Assembly: GCA_009782975.1 (NCBI GenBank)
Contig: WRIA01000027.1
Location: forward strand, 1 to 6,733
DNA from: Clostridiales bacterium
GTDB lineage: Bacteria; Bacillota_B; Dehalobacteriia; UBA4068
Reading direction: 5' to 3'
Length of the DNA: 6,733 nucleotides
Shown: positions 1,445 to 6,733 of the stretch, one piece after another
Numbering within the stretch: position 1 is the stretch's first letter
Layout of the letters: each line of letters opens with the position of its first letter
Position numbers and translations under genes: made by a program
The notes under the pieces: generated by a model
The model's database searches: none
What the model was told of the DNA's origin: nothing
Seen by the model: only the letters and a program-made list of their open reading frames with translations

Positions 1445-1473
1445 TTGACAATGTGCCCGGTGTGGCATATAAT
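1445..1473 (+). promoter_or_regulatory. Perfect-consensus sigma-A-type promoter
   Basis: TTGACA (1445-1450) and TATAAT (1468-1473) are both exact consensus hexamers separated by the optimal 17 bp. Transcription would begin at about 1478-1481. The site starts 21 bp after the ABC-F stop codon and lies directly upstream of a strongly structured segment. Such a strong promoter is typical of stable RNA genes. I see no other promoter between here and rsgA, so it may also drive rsgA and the ABC transporter genes. Confidence 0.82.
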
Positions 1474-1479
1474 AAAATT

Positions 1480-1683
1480 GTTCCGCAAGGGCAGTAGTTT
1501 ATTCCGAAGGGAGTTGCCTTGATGTCGGTCAGCTTTTTGACCACAATTTAAACTGTGATACGGCTCATAACAGGTTTTTTGGGTCAGACCCTTTGTTTTG
1601 TTATGCGCCGCATCTATAGCGACCTTTCGTGAATACTGCTGAAAGCGGGATACGGTAAAGGCTGTATCCCCTTTTGATTTCTT
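1480..1683 (+). ncRNA. Candidate structured RNA (small RNA gene or rsgA leader), family not identified
   Basis: The segment lies between the perfect promoter and a terminator-like hairpin. By eye it folds into three helices. P1 is the closing stem: 1491-1495 with 1635-1639, 1501-1504 with 1631-1634, and 1505-1511 with 1623-1629, about 16 bp with a 5-nt bulge on one side and a single-base bulge on the other. P2 is a hairpin, GGTCA 1527-1531 with TGACC 1538-1542. P3 is a long hairpin: GAT 1557-1559, CGGC 1561-1564 and CATAACA 1566-1572 pair with 1612-1614, 1607-1610 and 1599-1605. It is capped by GGGT 1581-1584 with ACCC 1588-1591. No open frame here looks like a gene. The size (about 200 nt), the long closing stem, the open middle and the long apical arm recall 6S RNA, but I cannot match conserved 6S positions. 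I looked for T-box, TPP, SAM, cobalamin, c-di-GMP and SRP RNA signatures and saw none. Confidence 0.5.
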
Positions 1684-1684
1684 A
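1642..1684 (+). terminator. Intrinsic terminator of the structured RNA
   Basis: GGGATAC (1647-1653) pairs with GTATCCC (1664-1670), extended inward by G·T and G-C pairs (1654-1655 with 1662-1663) around a 6-nt loop. AAAG before the stem can pair with CTTT after it, with one bulged C. The run after the stem is T-rich (CTTTTGATTTCTT) but interrupted. It could end a small RNA or work as an attenuator in front of rsgA. Confidence 0.62.
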
Positions 1685-1735
1685 TACCGTGAAACAGCAG
1701 CTTTTTAAGAGGCTGCTTGTTCCGCGGTATTTTTG
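1684..1735 (+). terminator. Second terminator-like hairpin upstream of rsgA
   Basis: ATACCG (1684-1689) pairs with CGGTAT (1725-1730). Further in, AACA (1693-1696) pairs with TGTT (1718-1721) and GCAGC (1697-1701) pairs with GCTGC (1712-1716), with a small internal loop and one bulged T. A run of five T residues (1730-1734) follows. Its left arm TACCGT (1685-1690) could instead pair with ACGGTA (1652-1657) of the preceding hairpin, so the two structures may compete. This supports attenuation of rsgA, or simply tandem terminators. Confidence 0.5.
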
Positions 1736-1743
1736 TACCCAAA

Positions 1744-1749
1744 AAGGAG
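1744..1749 (+). promoter_or_regulatory. Shine-Dalgarno site that fixes the rsgA start
   Basis: AAGGAG lies 8 nt before ATG at 1758. The frame stays open upstream to a TTG at 1674, but that codon lies in the T-tract of a terminator-like hairpin and has no ribosome site, so ATG 1758 is chosen. Confidence 0.85.
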
Positions 1750-1757
1750 CGTTAATT

Positions 1758-2825
1758 ATGATAGATTTAAAACTATACGGATACACCGAAAACGAAAAAC
1801 CTCCCCTTGGCCTTTTGCCTGGCCGGATAACGGAACAGCAACGGGAGCTATACACCGTTATTACCGCTAATGGCGAGGTAACGGCGGCGTTGACAGGTTC
1901 GTTTTACCACAGCGCAAAAACGAGCGCGGATATACCCTGCACCGGCGATTTTGTGTTTTTGCGGTACAATAGCAGCGGTCCCTCGCTTATAATGCGTTTA
2001 TTGCCCCGCCGCTCTGTGTTTTCCCGCGCCGATTTTTCCGGCCATACCGCCGAATATGCCAAAACAGTTTTAGAGCAGTTAGTAGCCGCCAATTTTGATT
2101 TCGTGTTTATTTTGAGCTCACTGAACAAGGACTTTAAGATAAGCCGTATAACGCGTTACCTTACCCAGGCCTGGCAAAGCGGCGGCCAGCCTGTGGTGAT
2201 CCTTACCAAAGCCGACCTGGTAGAGGATATTAAAACGCCTGTGTCCGCCGTTCAACAAGGGGCGATTGATGTGCCGGTACACGCGCTTTCCGTCCACACG
2301 GGTTTTGGTCTGGACGCTTTGAAGGGATATTTGCTGCCCGGTAAGACTGCGGTCTTTATAGGTATGTCCGGTGTGGGCAAATCCTCGCTGCTTAATACGC
2401 TGATGGGGCAGGATGTTATGGCCGTTAAGGCTATACGTGAGGACGACAGCCGTGGACGTCATGCCACGACCCACCGCCAGCTTTTTATGCTGCCTTCGGG
2501 GGCGCTGGTGATAGATACACCCGGTATGCGCGAGCTGGGTCTTTTTGGCGCGGACAACGGTATAAGCGTGGCCTTTGCCCGGGTGGAGGAATTATTCGGG
2601 CACTGCCGCTTTTCCGACTGCCACCACCAAAGCGAGCCGGGCTGCGCTGTAATCGCCGCGCTAAAGGATGGTTCGCTTTCGCGGGAGCGCTGGGAAAGCT
2701 ACCTGTCCCATAAGCGGGAAACGGCTTTTGTGGAGAGCAAGGCGGATTTTCTGCGCGAAAAAGGGGAATGGCAAAAATCCATAGCAAAGTTTTCCAAACA
2801 ATACAAGAAAGGACCGAAAAGATGA
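1758..2825 (+). CDS. rsgA: Ribosome small subunit-dependent GTPase A (RsgA/YjeQ family)
   Basis: This 355-residue cytoplasmic GTPase belongs to a family that checks late 30S subunit maturation. An OB-fold-like N-terminal domain covers about 20-90. The GTPase motifs are in the circularly permuted order typical of the family: G4 TKAD (150-153), G5-like segment near Ser178, G1 GMSGVGKSS (202-210), G2 threonines in the RHATTH segment (237-238) and G3 DTPG (253-256). The C-terminal zinc knuckle has the expected C-x4-C-x-H-x5-C spacing (Cys283, Cys288, His290, Cys296). The tail is lysine-rich. At 355 residues it is closer to the longer form (E. coli RsgA about 350) than to B. subtilis YloQ (about 298), so it may be a second RsgA paralogue; this is inference. 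None of the usual Firmicute neighbours (prpC, prkC) is present. Its stop overlaps the start of the next gene by 4 nt. Confidence 0.95.
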   Translation: MIDLKLYGYTENEKPPLGLLPGRITEQQRELYTVITANGEVTAALTGSFYHSAKTSADIPCTGDFVFLRYNSSGPSLIMRLLPRRSVFSRADFSGHTAEYAKTVLEQLVAANFDFVFILSSLNKDFKISRITRYLTQAWQSGGQPVVILTKADLVEDIKTPVSAVQQGAIDVPVHALSVHTGFGLDALKGYLLPGKTAVFIGMSGVGKSSLLNTLMGQDVMAVKAIREDDSRGRHATTHRQLFMLPSGALVIDTPGMRELGLFGADNGISVAFARVEELFGHCRFSDCHHQSEPGCAVIAALKDGSLSRERWESYLSHKRETAFVESKADFLREKGEWQKSIAKFSKQYKKGPKR

Positions 2826-3799
2826 GCCTAATATATACCAAAAACCTTACCAAAACATATAGCAGGTTCGAAAAAGAACCGGGATTAAAGGGCAGTATAA
2901 AGTCGCTGTTTAAGCGCAAGTTTGTGGAAAAGACCGCCGTTGAAGGCTTCGACCTGACCGTTGAGCAGGGGGAGTTTTTGGGGCTTATAGGCCCCAACGG
3001 AGCGGGCAAAACCACCCTGGTAAAAATGCTGACTGGTATAATACCGCCCACAACGGGGGAAATATCCGTGCTGGGGCATTATCCCAATAAGCTGGAAAAC
3101 GCCTTCAAAAAACAGTACGCCGTGGTGATGGGGCAAAAAAGCCAGCTTATATTCGATCTTACCGCCGCCGATACATTTTTGCTGTTCAAGGAGATGTACG
3201 GGATACCGGAGGTTGTGTATAAGCGCAACCTGAAAATGTTTACCGAATTGTTCGGCGCGGAGGAATACCTTAATATGCAGGTCCGCACGCTTTCCTTGGG
3301 CGAGCGGATGAAGATGGAGCTTGTAACGGCGCTGTTGCACGACCCCAGTGTGCTGTTTTTGGACGAGCCTACCATAGGCCTGGACGCCCCTGCGCAAAGG
3401 CAAATCCGTGCCTTTCTTAAAGAGGTGAACAAAAGCAAGGGAACCACCATATTATTGACCTCGCATTATATGGAGGATGTGCGCAGCTTGTGCCCCCGCA
3501 GCGTGGTGGTGGCCGGCGGGCGCAAGGTCTATGACGGCGATACCAAGGAACTGTTCAACGCGTATCAGACCCGCAAAAAAGTGACTGTTCAGTTTAAGCG
3601 CGAAACCGATCTTATGGCGGGCAGCAACTGGATAATCCTGGAAAAAAGCCCGCATAAAACGGTGTTTACTATACCAAAGGATAAAAGCGGCGCCGTGCTG
3701 GAGAATATAATGCGGGAACACCCCCTTAGCGACGTTTCCATAGAGGAAGAGGACATAGGCGTGATAGTAGAAAAAATCTACAGGGGCAAGGGGGCATAA
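2822..3799 (+). CDS. ABC-2-type transporter ATPase (COG4586-like)
   Basis: This 325-residue ATPase powers the export complex formed with the two following permeases. Motifs: Walker A GPNGAGKT (57-64), Q-loop Gln105, signature LSLGE (157-161) followed by RMKMEL, Walker B FLDEP (179-183) and H-loop His215. Between the first strand and Walker A there is an extra basic stretch (about 13-38, GLKGSIKSLFKRK). That stretch and the LSLGxRMKxEL signature are typical of the COG4586 group, which partners COG4587 and COG3694 permeases. A regulatory C-terminal domain occupies about 235-325. A start at 2768 in the same frame is possible, but ATG 2822 has a ribosome site (GAAAGGA) at proper distance, overlaps the rsgA stop as ATGA and matches the usual domain start. 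The transported compound is unknown; a cyanobacterial member of this family has been described as a methyl viologen exporter, which does not fix the substrate here. Confidence 0.94.
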   Translation: MSLIYTKNLTKTYSRFEKEPGLKGSIKSLFKRKFVEKTAVEGFDLTVEQGEFLGLIGPNGAGKTTLVKMLTGIIPPTTGEISVLGHYPNKLENAFKKQYAVVMGQKSQLIFDLTAADTFLLFKEMYGIPEVVYKRNLKMFTELFGAEEYLNMQVRTLSLGERMKMELVTALLHDPSVLFLDEPTIGLDAPAQRQIRAFLKEVNKSKGTTILLTSHYMEDVRSLCPRSVVVAGGRKVYDGDTKELFNAYQTRKKVTVQFKRETDLMAGSNWIILEKSPHKTVFTIPKDKSGAVLENIMREHPLSDVSIEEEDIGVIVEKIYRGKGA

Positions 3800-3801
3800 A
3801 A

Positions 3802-4599
3802 GTGAAAAAATATCTGGAGGTGTTCCGCCTGAGCTTTAAGATGCAGCTCGTCTGGCGCTTTGACGCGGCCATGACCATAATAGCCACCGCCGGGCGCATA
3901 CTTGCGGGTTGGATAGTGTGGCAGGCGATTTTTGAAGGCAAGGAGCTGGTAGGCGGTTTTACCTTTGAGGCTATGCTGTCTTACTATATAGTTTGCTCCC
4001 TGCTGCGCTCTATAGACTTTTCCGACCAGATTAGCGGCGAGGTCTCCGACCTGATACGGGAGGGCAGGTTTTCCGGTCACATGGTAACGCCTATTGATCC
4101 CCTGGGGTTTTTTGGCTCCCTGATAGCGGGGGAATCCGCTTTCCATTTGGGCTTTGGCCTTATAGCGGCCGCTGCTTGCGCCCTTGTCTTGGGCGTAAGC
4201 ATCACGCTTACGGGTGATGTCGCCCGCATATTGGCGGCAGCGGCCATAATACCGACGGGCCTGGCTTTTATGGCCGCTTTCCAGTATTTTATCGGGATAC
4301 TGACCTTTAAGTTTCTGGATATCCGATTCTTTATGTATGTGCAATGGAATATACTGGCTTTTGTTACGGGCTCCATGGTGCCCCTTTCCCTATTGCCCCA
4401 AGGTGTGCTGGCGATTTTGCGGTTTCTGCCTTTTACTCATGTGGTCTTTACGCCTACCATGCTGCTTACCGGGCAGATGACCGCAACGGAGGGCTTGTTC
4501 GGGCTGGCTGTTATAGGGGCATGGGCTATCCTGATGCCGGTTATCGCGCGGTATATGTACGGCCGTTTAAGAGTAAAATACGACGGGGTGGGTATATGA
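3802..4599 (+). CDS. ABC-2-type transporter permease, first subunit (COG4587-like)
   Basis: This is a 265-residue integral membrane protein. Hydrophobic segments lie at about 22-44, 56-70, 103-133, 139-166, 178-198 and 230-252, consistent with six helices and a cytoplasmic N terminus. The cytoplasmic loop motif EGRFSGHMVTPIDPL (87-101) matches the corresponding motif of the next gene (KRGDLDQYLTKPVSPL), so the two are paralogues that probably form a heterodimeric pore. The start is GTG at 3802, 2 nt after the stop of the ATPase gene, with AAGGGGG 7 nt upstream. The size and gene order (ATPase, permease, permease) fit the family that carries the DUF990/ABC2_membrane_6 type of permease. The substrate is not evident. 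Its stop overlaps the start of the second permease by 4 nt. Confidence 0.9.
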   Translation: MKKYLEVFRLSFKMQLVWRFDAAMTIIATAGRILAGWIVWQAIFEGKELVGGFTFEAMLSYYIVCSLLRSIDFSDQISGEVSDLIREGRFSGHMVTPIDPLGFFGSLIAGESAFHLGFGLIAAAACALVLGVSITLTGDVARILAAAAIIPTGLAFMAAFQYFIGILTFKFLDIRFFMYVQWNILAFVTGSMVPLSLLPQGVLAILRFLPFTHVVFTPTMLLTGQMTATEGLFGLAVIGAWAILMPVIARYMYGRLRVKYDGVGI

Positions 4600-5387
4600 A
4601 AAGAAACATAAGGTTTATATTGCTGCTTATAAAGCTTAAATTATCCCGTATGATGATGTTTAGGGTCAGCTTTTTTGGCGCTTTTCTGGCGGACGGCACC
4701 TTGTTTTTGGTGCAGCTGCTGGCCTTCGAAACTATATATTCGCAGATAGACAGCATAGGCGGCTGGGAAAGAGGGCAGATGATAATTTTTATAGGCACCT
4801 TTGCCGTTATCAACGCCCTTAATATGCTTATCTACTTTTTTGGCGTTGTGGAGATATCCGGCAAAATCAAACGGGGCGATTTGGATCAGTATCTGACCAA
4901 GCCGGTAAGCCCCCTGCTGCGCCTGACCTTTGAAAACGTGAACCCAGGCTCTGTACCCCTGGTTGTTTTAAGCGCGCTGATAGTTTGTTACGGCGTGCGG
5001 GTATCGGGCATACAGGTCTCCTTTTGGATCGGGGCGGCCTATAGCGGGCTGGTCCTGTTGATGACGCTGCTATGGTACGATATGGAGCTTATCATACGCA
5101 CGATACCCTTTTTTGTTATCTTTGCAAACGGCGTAATGCAGTTGGAAGAACAGTTTATAGAAATTAACTTTAAGGTTCCCGGCGTGCTGTACAAGGGGGT
5201 ATTTAAGGCGCTGTTTTATTTTATACTGCCCTACGGCGTGATGTCCACGGCACCCACACAGCTGCTTTCCGGCGTATTGAGTACGCAGGGGCTTATCCAC
5301 GCCCTTGGCATAACGCTGGTTTTTACCGCGTTTGCCCTGTGGTTCTGGCGGTTCGGCTTAAGGCATTACAAAAGTGCCGGAAGCTGA
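4596..5387 (+). CDS. ABC-2-type transporter permease, second subunit (COG3694-like, DUF990 type)
   Basis: This is a 263-residue membrane protein with hydrophobic segments at about 24-46, 60-84, 116-135, 142-161, 165-180, 203-225 and 232-252. The inner-loop motif KRGDLDQYLTKPVSPL (92-107) is the counterpart of the motif in the first permease, which supports a heterodimer driven by the upstream ATPase. ATG 4596 overlaps the previous stop as ATGA and has only a G-rich ribosome site (GGGGTGGG), so translation is probably coupled. The frame remains open upstream to 4344, but that part runs inside the first permease and is not real coding sequence. It is the last gene of the cluster. No clear T-tract terminator follows; the next structure is the parS palindrome 22 nt downstream. 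Confidence 0.91.
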   Translation: MKRNIRFILLLIKLKLSRMMMFRVSFFGAFLADGTLFLVQLLAFETIYSQIDSIGGWERGQMIIFIGTFAVINALNMLIYFFGVVEISGKIKRGDLDQYLTKPVSPLLRLTFENVNPGSVPLVVLSALIVCYGVRVSGIQVSFWIGAAYSGLVLLMTLLWYDMELIIRTIPFFVIFANGVMQLEEQFIEINFKVPGVLYKGVFKALFYFILPYGVMSTAPTQLLSGVLSTQGLIHALGITLVFTAFALWFWRFGLRHYKSAGS

Positions 5388-5408: not shown

Positions 5409-5446
5409 TAAGCGTATAATGTTTCACGTGAAACATTATACGCTTA
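5409..5446. repeat. 38-bp perfect palindrome centred on parS site 1
   Basis: The 19-nt arms 5409-5427 and 5428-5446 are exact reverse complements with no spacer. The inner 16 bp are parS; the outer arms add TAAGCGTATAA on the left and its complement on the right. It could extrude as a cruciform. No T-tract follows on the + strand, so it is a poor terminator for the upstream operon. On the minus strand it is followed by TATTTTG. Confidence 0.93.
5420..5435. other. parS: parS site 1 (ParB/Spo0J binding)
   Basis: TGTTTCACGTGAAACA is the exact 16-bp palindromic parS sequence bound by chromosomal ParB (Spo0J). ParB loads here, spreads, and recruits SMC for origin segregation. Sites of this type cluster around the replication origin in most bacteria, so the locus is probably origin-proximal. 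The sequence differs from the Noc box (ATTTCCCGGGAAAT). No parA or parB gene is in the window. Confidence 0.92.
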
Positions 5447-5494: not shown

Positions 5495-5510
5495 TGTTTC
5501 ACGTGAAACA
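5495..5510. other. parS: parS site 2 (ParB/Spo0J binding)
   Basis: This is a second exact copy of TGTTTCACGTGAAACA, with its centre 75 bp from that of site 1. The palindrome extends to 20 bp (AATGTTTCACGTGAAACATT, 5493-5512). Its flanks differ from those of site 1 beyond TAAT on the left and ATT on the right, so only the site, not a larger unit, is repeated. Confidence 0.92.
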
Positions 5511-5694: not shown

Positions 5695-6733
5695 ATGATC
5701 GAGCAAAAAAATAAAGCCCGTAAAAATAATCTGCGCCGCGTTTTATTGCCGGTGGCGATTTTTCTTGCCGCTTCGGTAATAGGATATATATTTCGTTATA
5801 TCAACTTTCCGGATACAAATATAGTAGTAGTTTACTTGCTGGCTGTTCTGATGACCGCGTGGCTTGCCCAAAGCTTTATTTTTGGATTTATCGCTTCGTT
5901 ATTAGCTACGTTTTTATTCAACTATTTCTTTGCGGAACCTATTTTTACATTTTCTGTAAATGACCCTAACTATATAGTTACTTTTGTTACAATGACTGTT
6001 ACCGCGCTTATTACAAGCACGCTGACATCCCATGCCCAGCGCAGCGCAATAGAATCCAAAGAAAAGGAGACGGAAACCAAGGCTATTTATAACCTTACCA
6101 ACCACCTGACCGACGCAAATGGCATACACGACATAGCCGGTATTGCCGCATTTGCCATCAGCGAATGTTTTTCTTGCAATGCCGCTTGCCTTTGCTTCGA
6201 CGAGGATAATATGCCCGAGAATACTTTTATTCAACAAATGCCAGACGGCGAGCAGGTACGGCGGGAGGTTGCGGACGTCGACGAAATGAAACACCGGATT
6301 GAGAGCCTGCGCACCGGCTTTGATACAGGCGCCGAATTTACCGATTGGCCTATTTATGGCAGGGAAAGCATACTGGGCGTTATACGTATTCCCAACGACA
6401 GGGATATAAGCATGAATGAAGCGCAAAAGCGGCTATTGCGCTCTATGATAGAAAGCGCCGCCCTTGCTATGGATAGGTTCCGCTCGGCCGAACAGCGTAT
6501 CCGGTCGCGGGATGAAACAGAAAAGGAGCGCTATCGCGCTAATCTTCTTCGCGCTATTTCTCACGACATACGCACACCTCTTTCCGGCATGATAGGAACG
6601 ACGGAAATGCTTATGGGTATGACCTGCGAGGACGATCCGCGTTATGAACTGTTAAAAGGCATACAAAAAAGTGCGGATTGGCTTCATTCGTTGGTGGAAA
6701 ACATCCTTAATCTTACCCGCTTGCAGGACGGTA
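5695..6733 (+). CDS. KdpD-like sensor histidine kinase with DUF4118 domain, 3'-truncated by the window
   Basis: The frame is open from ATG 5695 to the window end (346 residues and continuing). A basic N terminus leads into four membrane segments (about 17-33, 42-57, 60-78, 93-110) with the DUF4118 pattern, including FNYFFAEPIFTFSVND at 75-90. A GAF-like region follows at about 130-260. The dimerization/phosphoacceptor helix begins near 280, with SHDIRTP at 289-295 and His290 as the predicted phosphorylated residue. The ATP-binding domain lies beyond the window. This corresponds to the C-terminal half of KdpD, the sensor for potassium transport control; the N-terminal KdpD and Usp-like domains are absent. 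An in-frame TGA at 5686 rules out a longer N terminus. The ribosome site is weak: AGGGAAGG lies 15 nt before ATG. No kdp transporter gene is upstream, and the response regulator may lie downstream. A potassium role is plausible but not shown. Confidence 0.9.
   Translation, partial: MIEQKNKARKNNLRRVLLPVAIFLAASVIGYIFRYINFPDTNIVVVYLLAVLMTAWLAQSFIFGFIASLLATFLFNYFFAEPIFTFSVNDPNYIVTFVTMTVTALITSTLTSHAQRSAIESKEKETETKAIYNLTNHLTDANGIHDIAGIAAFAISECFSCNAACLCFDEDNMPENTFIQQMPDGEQVRREVADVDEMKHRIESLRTGFDTGAEFTDWPIYGRESILGVIRIPNDRDISMNEAQKRLLRSMIESAALAMDRFRSAEQRIRSRDETEKERYRANLLRAISHDIRTPLSGMIGTTEMLMGMTCEDDPRYELLKGIQKSADWLHSLVENILNLTRLQDG

Follow-up and report, generated by a model that had tools for sequence, protein, structure and literature searches.

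A probable ribosome-sensing transcription attenuator upstream of an rsgA paralog, from an RNA family without Rfam entry

The DNA analysed here, a stretch of 6,733 nucleotides referred to as the window, carries a gene for an RsgA-family GTPase followed by three genes of an ABC-2 exporter. A structured leader lies between the promoter and the GTPase gene (Table 1). Just upstream, positions 3-1424 encode the C-terminal part of an ABC-F protein of a ribosomal-protection-like family, scored at 332.9 bits against a cut-off of 380 for what is a partial gene. At the other end a gene for a KdpD-type sensor kinase with DUF4118 and HisKA domains (5695-6732) is cut by the end of the window. Two copies of TGTTTCACGTGAAACA are present at 5420-5435 and 5495-5510, the first within a 17-bp palindrome. 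We take this sequence to resemble the parS site of chromosome partitioning, and the two copies suggest that the locus lies near the replication origin.

Table 1. Elements of the leader and the genes behind it, with positions in the window
Feature	Position	Strand	Basis or description
Promoter TTGACA-17-TATAAT	1445..1473	+	12/12 consensus match; predicted transcription start near 1480
Closing stem P1	1492-1498 + 1501-1511 with 1623-1629 + 1631-1641	+	18 pairs, bulged
Strand 1 (5' half of P1, overlaps the uORF Shine-Dalgarno)	1492..1511	+	Duplex with strand 2, -21.0 kcal/mol
Shine-Dalgarno (SD) of the uORF, GAAGGGAG	1506..1513	+	Read directly; aligned SD in alignment A6
uORF, MSVSFLTTI and stop, 9 codons	1522..1551	+	ORF reading; uORF found by rule in 104/113 leaders
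Small hairpin	1527-1542	+	Fold
P3, apical hairpin 3' of the uORF stop	1561..1610	+	P3 helix with 90.5% of cells paired; two-sided changes in 6/6 pairs
Strand 2 (CCTTTCGTGAATACTGCTG..., anti-SD), proposed to pair with either strand 1 or the 5' arm of T2	1623..1646	+	Alignment, swap tests
T1, terminator-like hairpin (1647-1670) and short T run	1647..1675	+	Hairpin listing; the covariation scan has its two best pairs here
T2, terminator hairpin (1685-1729) and T run	1685..1734	+	Fold
rsgA paralog (RsgA_GTPase)	1758..2825	+	PF03193, 160.5 bits; outside the presumed housekeeping clade in the tree
ABC-2 exporter ATPase	2822..3799	+	Domain match; start chosen by us, overlaps the rsgA stop
Two ABC-2 permeases (PF06182)	3802..5387 (3802-4599, 4596-5387)	+	Domain match

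The exact TTGACA-17-TATAAT promoter described in a first-pass annotation of this DNA was borne out. Among the sites listed for the window it is the sole one that matches the consensus at 12/12 positions, and it is also the only site listed on the forward strand between 1400 and 1758, in agreement with the earlier remark that no other promoter is visible before rsgA. The RNA that follows folds more stably than its shuffled versions. The minimum free energy of 1479-1680 is -74.2 kcal/mol (z -4.9) and that of 1479-1757 is -108.9 (z -8.05), and in both cases none of 200 shuffles equalled it. A small hairpin (1527-1542), a long apical arm (1561-1610) and hairpins with T-rich tails (T1 and T2) had been described and are all present. 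The closing stem exists as well, although it has 18 pairs with bulges instead of the 16 bp given before. That account of the fold was thus correct in its structure but omitted the SD and the short open reading frame (uORF) that together occupy 1506-1551, as well as the anti-SD nature of the 3' half of the closing stem. Between the uORF and rsgA the window contains two intrinsic-terminator-like hairpins, T1 and T2. The first-pass annotation could assign the leader to no known RNA family, and a search of Rfam, as it had advised with 6S RNA especially in mind, led to the same result: no family reached its gathering score, and the two matches at E<=10 were both chance-level. 6S RNA, or any other Rfam family, was ruled out in this way as the identity of the leader.

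The leader is a member of an RNA family without Rfam entry, represented by 113 examples from the Bacillota groups searched. With the RsgA protein of the window as query 22 genome loci were obtained, many of which show the same anatomy in other letters upstream of rsgA. R1, a covariance model for which the window and nine loci were the seed, matched 12 of the 22 RsgA loci at E<=0.01, while those of Enterococcus, Lacticaseibacillus and proteobacteria scored above this E value. At E<=1 R1 had matches in 13 of the 14 genomes of these loci, or in 12 once three matches judged false were removed; L035, L040 and L041 were discarded as false matches that have no SD-uORF. Further genome sets gave R1 matches in 4/82, 11/299 and 19/391 genomes, with the centre genome counted in each. 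In the genus of Paenibacillus ferrarius the centre genome itself was the only one of 30 with a match, so the distribution of the leader is patchy. A model built from 52 leaders (R2) matched 34/198, 2/3 (both known before) and 35/295 genomes, in sets that overlap those searched earlier. It matched none of 185 genomes in the class of a gammaproteobacterium and, among six genomes reached via other RsgA loci, one weakly (E 0.05). No relative of the window's leader was found in a search of plasmids at E<=1.

The 113 leaders, the window included, comprise 52 in alignment A6 and 61 in alignment A7, and the lowest score among them is 25.9 bits. Duplicate loci (L023-L030, L032-L034 and L039) were left out of A6 and duplicates of known leaders (L112, L118, L137, L143 and L146) out of A7; L014, a weak R2 match of 29.1 bits, stands outside the 113. 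A third model (R3), made from 44 leaders without the window, found a single match in the window, at 1502-1674, with 74.9 bits and E 9.2e-15. This test is near-independent but not blind, since the 44 sequences had been aligned with R1, whose seed contained the window as one of ten. The window is a divergent member of the family, as it lacks the GGTG element described below and departs from the P3 consensus: one model pair of P3 is broken, yet a longer local stem forms. Two RsgA-paralog genes of Enterococcus seem to be preceded by another short-ORF leader (L009, 4689-4858; L010, 1199-1368), which reached only 15.6 and 14.4 bits.

In alignment A6 90.7% of the cells pair, and two-sided changes occur in 20 of 21 pairs. 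On none of five measures of pairing did any of 500 shuffles score as high, and shifting the helix partners along the alignment abolished the signal. Because A6 is a model-fitted alignment and the shuffles are blind to relatedness, the covariation result is biased toward the structure. A scan of all column pairs placed two T1 pairs and one P3 pair at ranks 1-3; ranks 4-6 fall outside the helices, which means that the scan is noisy below its top. The T1 stem is kept by compensatory changes, often with a T run behind it, and the helix between SD and anti-SD is the least variable of the three. The check on related loci that had been proposed for this leader gave conservation in relatives as well as covarying stems.

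What follows the leader was defined as the longest ORF starting within 600 nt 3' of it. An ORF of at least 70 codons was found in 112 of the 113 cases; the exception, L160, is at the end of a contig and has no ORF. RsgA-like genes account for 80/113 and MutS2 for 11/113 (4 over the NCBIfam cut-off, 7 by blastp cluster). APH-like kinases follow seven leaders (3 by Pfam, the others by blastp cluster), Lsa-like ABC-F proteins two (one over the general ABC-F cut-off) and Tet-type ribosomal protection GTPases another two, whose best family was tet_protect (578 and 513 bits; the cut-off is 775), both genes being cut by the locus end. A methyltransferase, a Na/H exchanger, a HAD hydrolase and an ABC exporter were found once each, and L056 and L058 are followed by a pair with acetyltransferase domains. 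Directly after L076 there is an ABC-2 ATPase 68.8% identical to that of the window, and the ORFs behind L156, L158 and L170 fell into no class. Pieces of rsgA lie between leader and next ORF in L048, L111, L127 and L170, the next ORF being an APH-like kinase in the first three; in L046, L050 and L116 an APH-like gene comes after the leader and no rsgA piece was found.

RsgA, MutS2, ABC-F or Tet-type genes follow 95 of the 113 leaders. Judged by their families most of the genes other than rsgA are related to the ribosome too, so that ribosome protection or rescue would be the theme of the genes under control of the leader. MutS2 of B. subtilis is described as splitting stalled ribosomes (PMC10897456). 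The gene content also bears on what kind of RNA this is. The first-pass annotation had left the choice between a free small RNA of 6S-like shape and a cis-regulatory leader. A small RNA gene, 6S-like or coding for another trans-acting RNA, with incidental read-through into rsgA, would fit the strong promoter, the two terminator-like hairpins and the compact fold. It is nevertheless extremely improbable in view of these 95 leaders, of the missing match to 6S or any other family in Rfam, and of the conserved SD and uORF, the supposed closing stem actually including the SD of this uORF. A cis-regulatory leader, by comparison, is well supported, being conserved, covarying and followed by an ORF almost invariably. 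A northern band of about 200 nt, which had been suggested as a test, could not separate the two possibilities because an attenuator also yields a short terminated transcript. Another kind of cis-regulation would be a metabolite riboswitch in which the uORF is secondary. The conserved P3 arm and the conserved letters after the uORF stop, neither of which a simple attenuator explains, might be accounted for in this way, but the strongest letters are found in the SD, the end of the uORF and the anti-SD strand, and most of the controlled genes have ribosome protection or rescue in common and not a metabolite. We consider a riboswitch very improbable.

RsgA-family matches numbered at least two in each of the 15 genomes searched. 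A tree was built from 45 RsgA sequences, two of them duplicates, and in it one long-branch clade with a support of 1.000 comprised exactly one RsgA from each of these 15 genomes; it is presumed to be the housekeeping RsgA. The RsgA of the window groups outside this clade, together with the leader-linked paralogs. Three Paenibacillus-type genomes (G004, G261 and G329; L092, L094 and L096) possess an RsgA on the paralog side with no leader match at the site. The leader may identify the RsgA paralogs as genes that probably respond to translation stress or antibiotics, and as a sequence handle it could serve for the discovery of more such genes. One candidate RNA switch without Rfam entry would tie together RsgA paralogs, MutS2, ABC-F proteins and protection GTPases.

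How might such a leader work? We think it is a ribosome-mediated transcription attenuator, to which we assign a probability of roughly 0.77 from the sequences compared. The promoter at 1445 would give rise to a leader RNA with the SD and the 9-codon uORF. As long as the SD is free of ribosomes, strand 1 (1492-1511) would pair with strand 2 (1623-1646), T2 (and T1) would form and transcription would stop. If a ribosome was held on the uORF, for example by a translation inhibitor, strand 1 would be hidden, leaving strand 2 to pair with the T2 5' arm. With T2 blocked in this way, the polymerase would read through into the rsgA paralog and on into the exporter genes. In other words, the leader probably lets the rsgA paralog be made only when ribosomes are stuck. 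From the conservation, the covariation, the uORF, the terminator-like hairpins, the kinds of genes and the co-variation of both rival pairings, we infer a switch between pairings with the ribosome as its likely sensor, drugs or other translation stress as the signal and ribosome protection as the purpose.

Two partners that compete for strand 2 would each be expected to co-vary with it. This was addressed by swap tests, in which cognate partners were compared with partners exchanged between leaders and p was obtained by permutation. After removal of leaders at least 70% identical to others, 20 of 36 leaders remained in the first set and 14 of 38 in the second. L043 was taken out of the first by hand for a wrong T2 call, and the 14 were unfiltered against the first 20, some being related (e.g. 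L108 to L046). In the first set strand 2 and the 5' arm of T2 gave -9.64 kcal/mol as cognate and -7.55 kcal/mol as swapped partners (0/5000), a co-variation that is unexplained by GC content (0/20000). For strand 2 and strand 1, the latter taken as flank plus SD, the values were -13.93 against -11.97 (p 0.0004). Both results recurred in the second set, with 42/5000 for the T2 5' arm and 33/5000 for strand 1 including the SD, each tested against strand 2. When the SD was left off, the 5' flank showed no co-variation with strand 2 in the 20 leaders (p 0.22). Control pairings were null in the 20 leaders (strand 2 with the T2 3' arm, p 0.40; P3 with the T2 3' arm, 0.74; strand 2 with T1, 0.72) and likewise in the 14 (strand 2 with either T1 or the T2 3' arm, flank with the T2 5' arm). 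The layout 1:2 / 2:3 / 3:4 suggested by the swap tests is that of classical attenuators.

Several other pairings were tried and rejected. Strand 2 with T1 as antiterminator had a mean z of -0.48, with 3/45 leaders at p<=0.05, and its swap tests gave p 0.72 and 2206/5000. The 3' strand of P3 with the T2 3' arm had p 0.02 in redundant leaders and p 0.74 in the 20 non-redundant ones, and strand 2 with the T2 3' arm went from p 0.06 in redundant leaders, a value distorted by two leaders whose strand 2 has 4 nt, to p 0.40 in the 20.

In the window the T2 5' arm contains CAGCAG (1695-1700), which is complementary to CTGCTG (1636-1641) in strand 2. This 2:3 duplex has 6 bp and -9.9 kcal/mol, compared with -24.5 kcal/mol for T2, which counts against the attenuator. 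So does the place of T1: strands 2 and 3 flank this hairpin, whose formation they might leave unhindered, and its proposed pairing was unsupported. A third point against it comes from equilibrium folding. When the SD or the uORF was masked in 11 leaders, T2 stayed formed (0.78-1.03 on our measure) in all eight that have T2. The pairing of strand 2 with T2 increased only in L005 (from 0.10 to 0.33 at most) and a clear drop of T1 was seen only in L001 (from 0.98 to 0.47); the masked folds started at the SD, which shortened strand 1. Since masking leaves the equilibrium fold unflipped, the switch would have to be kinetic or factor-assisted.

Translation attenuation or a mixed control, with the uORF and strand 2 mainly governing the access to a ribosome binding site or RNA stability and not the terminators, would account for T2 staying closed under masking and for the low variability of the helix between SD and anti-SD. 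It would also account for the leaders in which T2 was absent from a search at a cut-off of -9 kcal/mol, namely 13/52 and 23/61 (36/113). We regard it as unlikely all the same, given that strand 2 pairs with the SD of the uORF itself, which lies some 245 nt before rsgA begins, and not with the SD of rsgA, that compensatory changes preserve the stem of T1, often with its T run, and that co-variation links strand 2 to the 5' arm of T2.

If the leader is a transcription attenuator, the question arises as to what the ribosome would respond to. Of the 104 uORFs found by rule, 68 are 10 or 11 codons long (43 and 25, respectively). In 103 leaders G-GTG-RTT is conserved in the uORF, spanning -13 to -7 relative to the stop, as is an A at +9; because the rule rewards AATA-like letters after the stop, the profile there depends on the rule itself. 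Each letter of GGTG at -13 to -10 occurs in 89-92% of the 103 leaders. The codon at -5, before GTG, ends in G in 94/103 while its amino acid varies, and the valine at -4 is encoded by GTG in 86/91, which argues for selection on the RNA and not on the peptide. The element resembles the second half of a full Shine-Dalgarno sequence (complementary to the 16S end).

A tentative explanation, possible but doubtful, is that the leader is a general translation-stress switch of Bacillota which reads ribosome traffic and not one drug or peptide. It would be a sensor of two ribosomes, or of their collision, that drives MutS2, RsgA paralogs and target-protection genes. One ribosome would be held at the uORF stop by the GGTG element and, with a uORF of 10-11 codons, a second ribosome at the start would stack behind it and hide strand 1. 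On this view the RsgA paralogs would stand to RsgA as HflXr stands to HflX, namely as inducible factors that protect ribosomes. The family offers a system for testing ribosome stalling at a stop codon and stacking directly. The idea was drawn from the relatives. The uORF of the window has 9 codons and ends in TTT TTG ACC ACA ATT TAA without a GGTG element, and on this reading the window would count as a derived member.

Of the experimental cases that we have seen, HflXr of Listeria comes closest to the proposed attenuation, the same design being described there as backed by experiments (PMC6310831). The rli80 leader of hflXr resembles ours in its short uORF and in its arrangement of anti-antiterminator, antiterminator and terminator, and it precedes a homolog of a ribosome-splitting GTPase, the signal there being a ribosome stalled by an antibiotic (PMC6310831). 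It differs in encoding a 14-amino-acid peptide with an RLR motif (PMC6310831), which the peptide of the window lacks; the two RNAs are likened here by description. Unlike rli80, our family would act mostly on RsgA paralogs and MutS2, and its pairing involves the SD of the uORF. Other systems can likewise be compared by description. The uORFC-6-1 motif before hflX is likewise reported as a uORF-bearing structured leader of a ribosome-rescue gene, though of another gene (PMC8632094), and in Bacillus subtilis the attenuators described for vmlR and bmrCD act on an ABC-F gene and, through the ribosome, on an ABC exporter, respectively (PMC9226507, PMC4191407). The titles and abstract openings of open-licence literature on RsgA, MutS2 and uORF attenuation contained no description of the leader, and the main text of PMC8040213 mentions neither rsgA nor MutS2 nor a uORF. 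The members being probable attenuators, the family is new in sequence and gene range and known in kind.

By eye the leaders of tet(M)/tet(O) (L174 and L176, 900-1200 in each) are also similar to ours in having a short uORF with SD, a later complementary strand and then a terminator. They differ in that the complement targets the body of the uORF and not its SD. At E<=10 model R2 found no match in L174 and L175, and in L176 a chance-level match outside the leader. A tail of TTTTTATGCC follows the tet(M)/tet(O) terminator and is also present after T2 in several of our leaders (e.g. L026, L036, L058 and L068). The likeness could be due either to common descent or to convergence.
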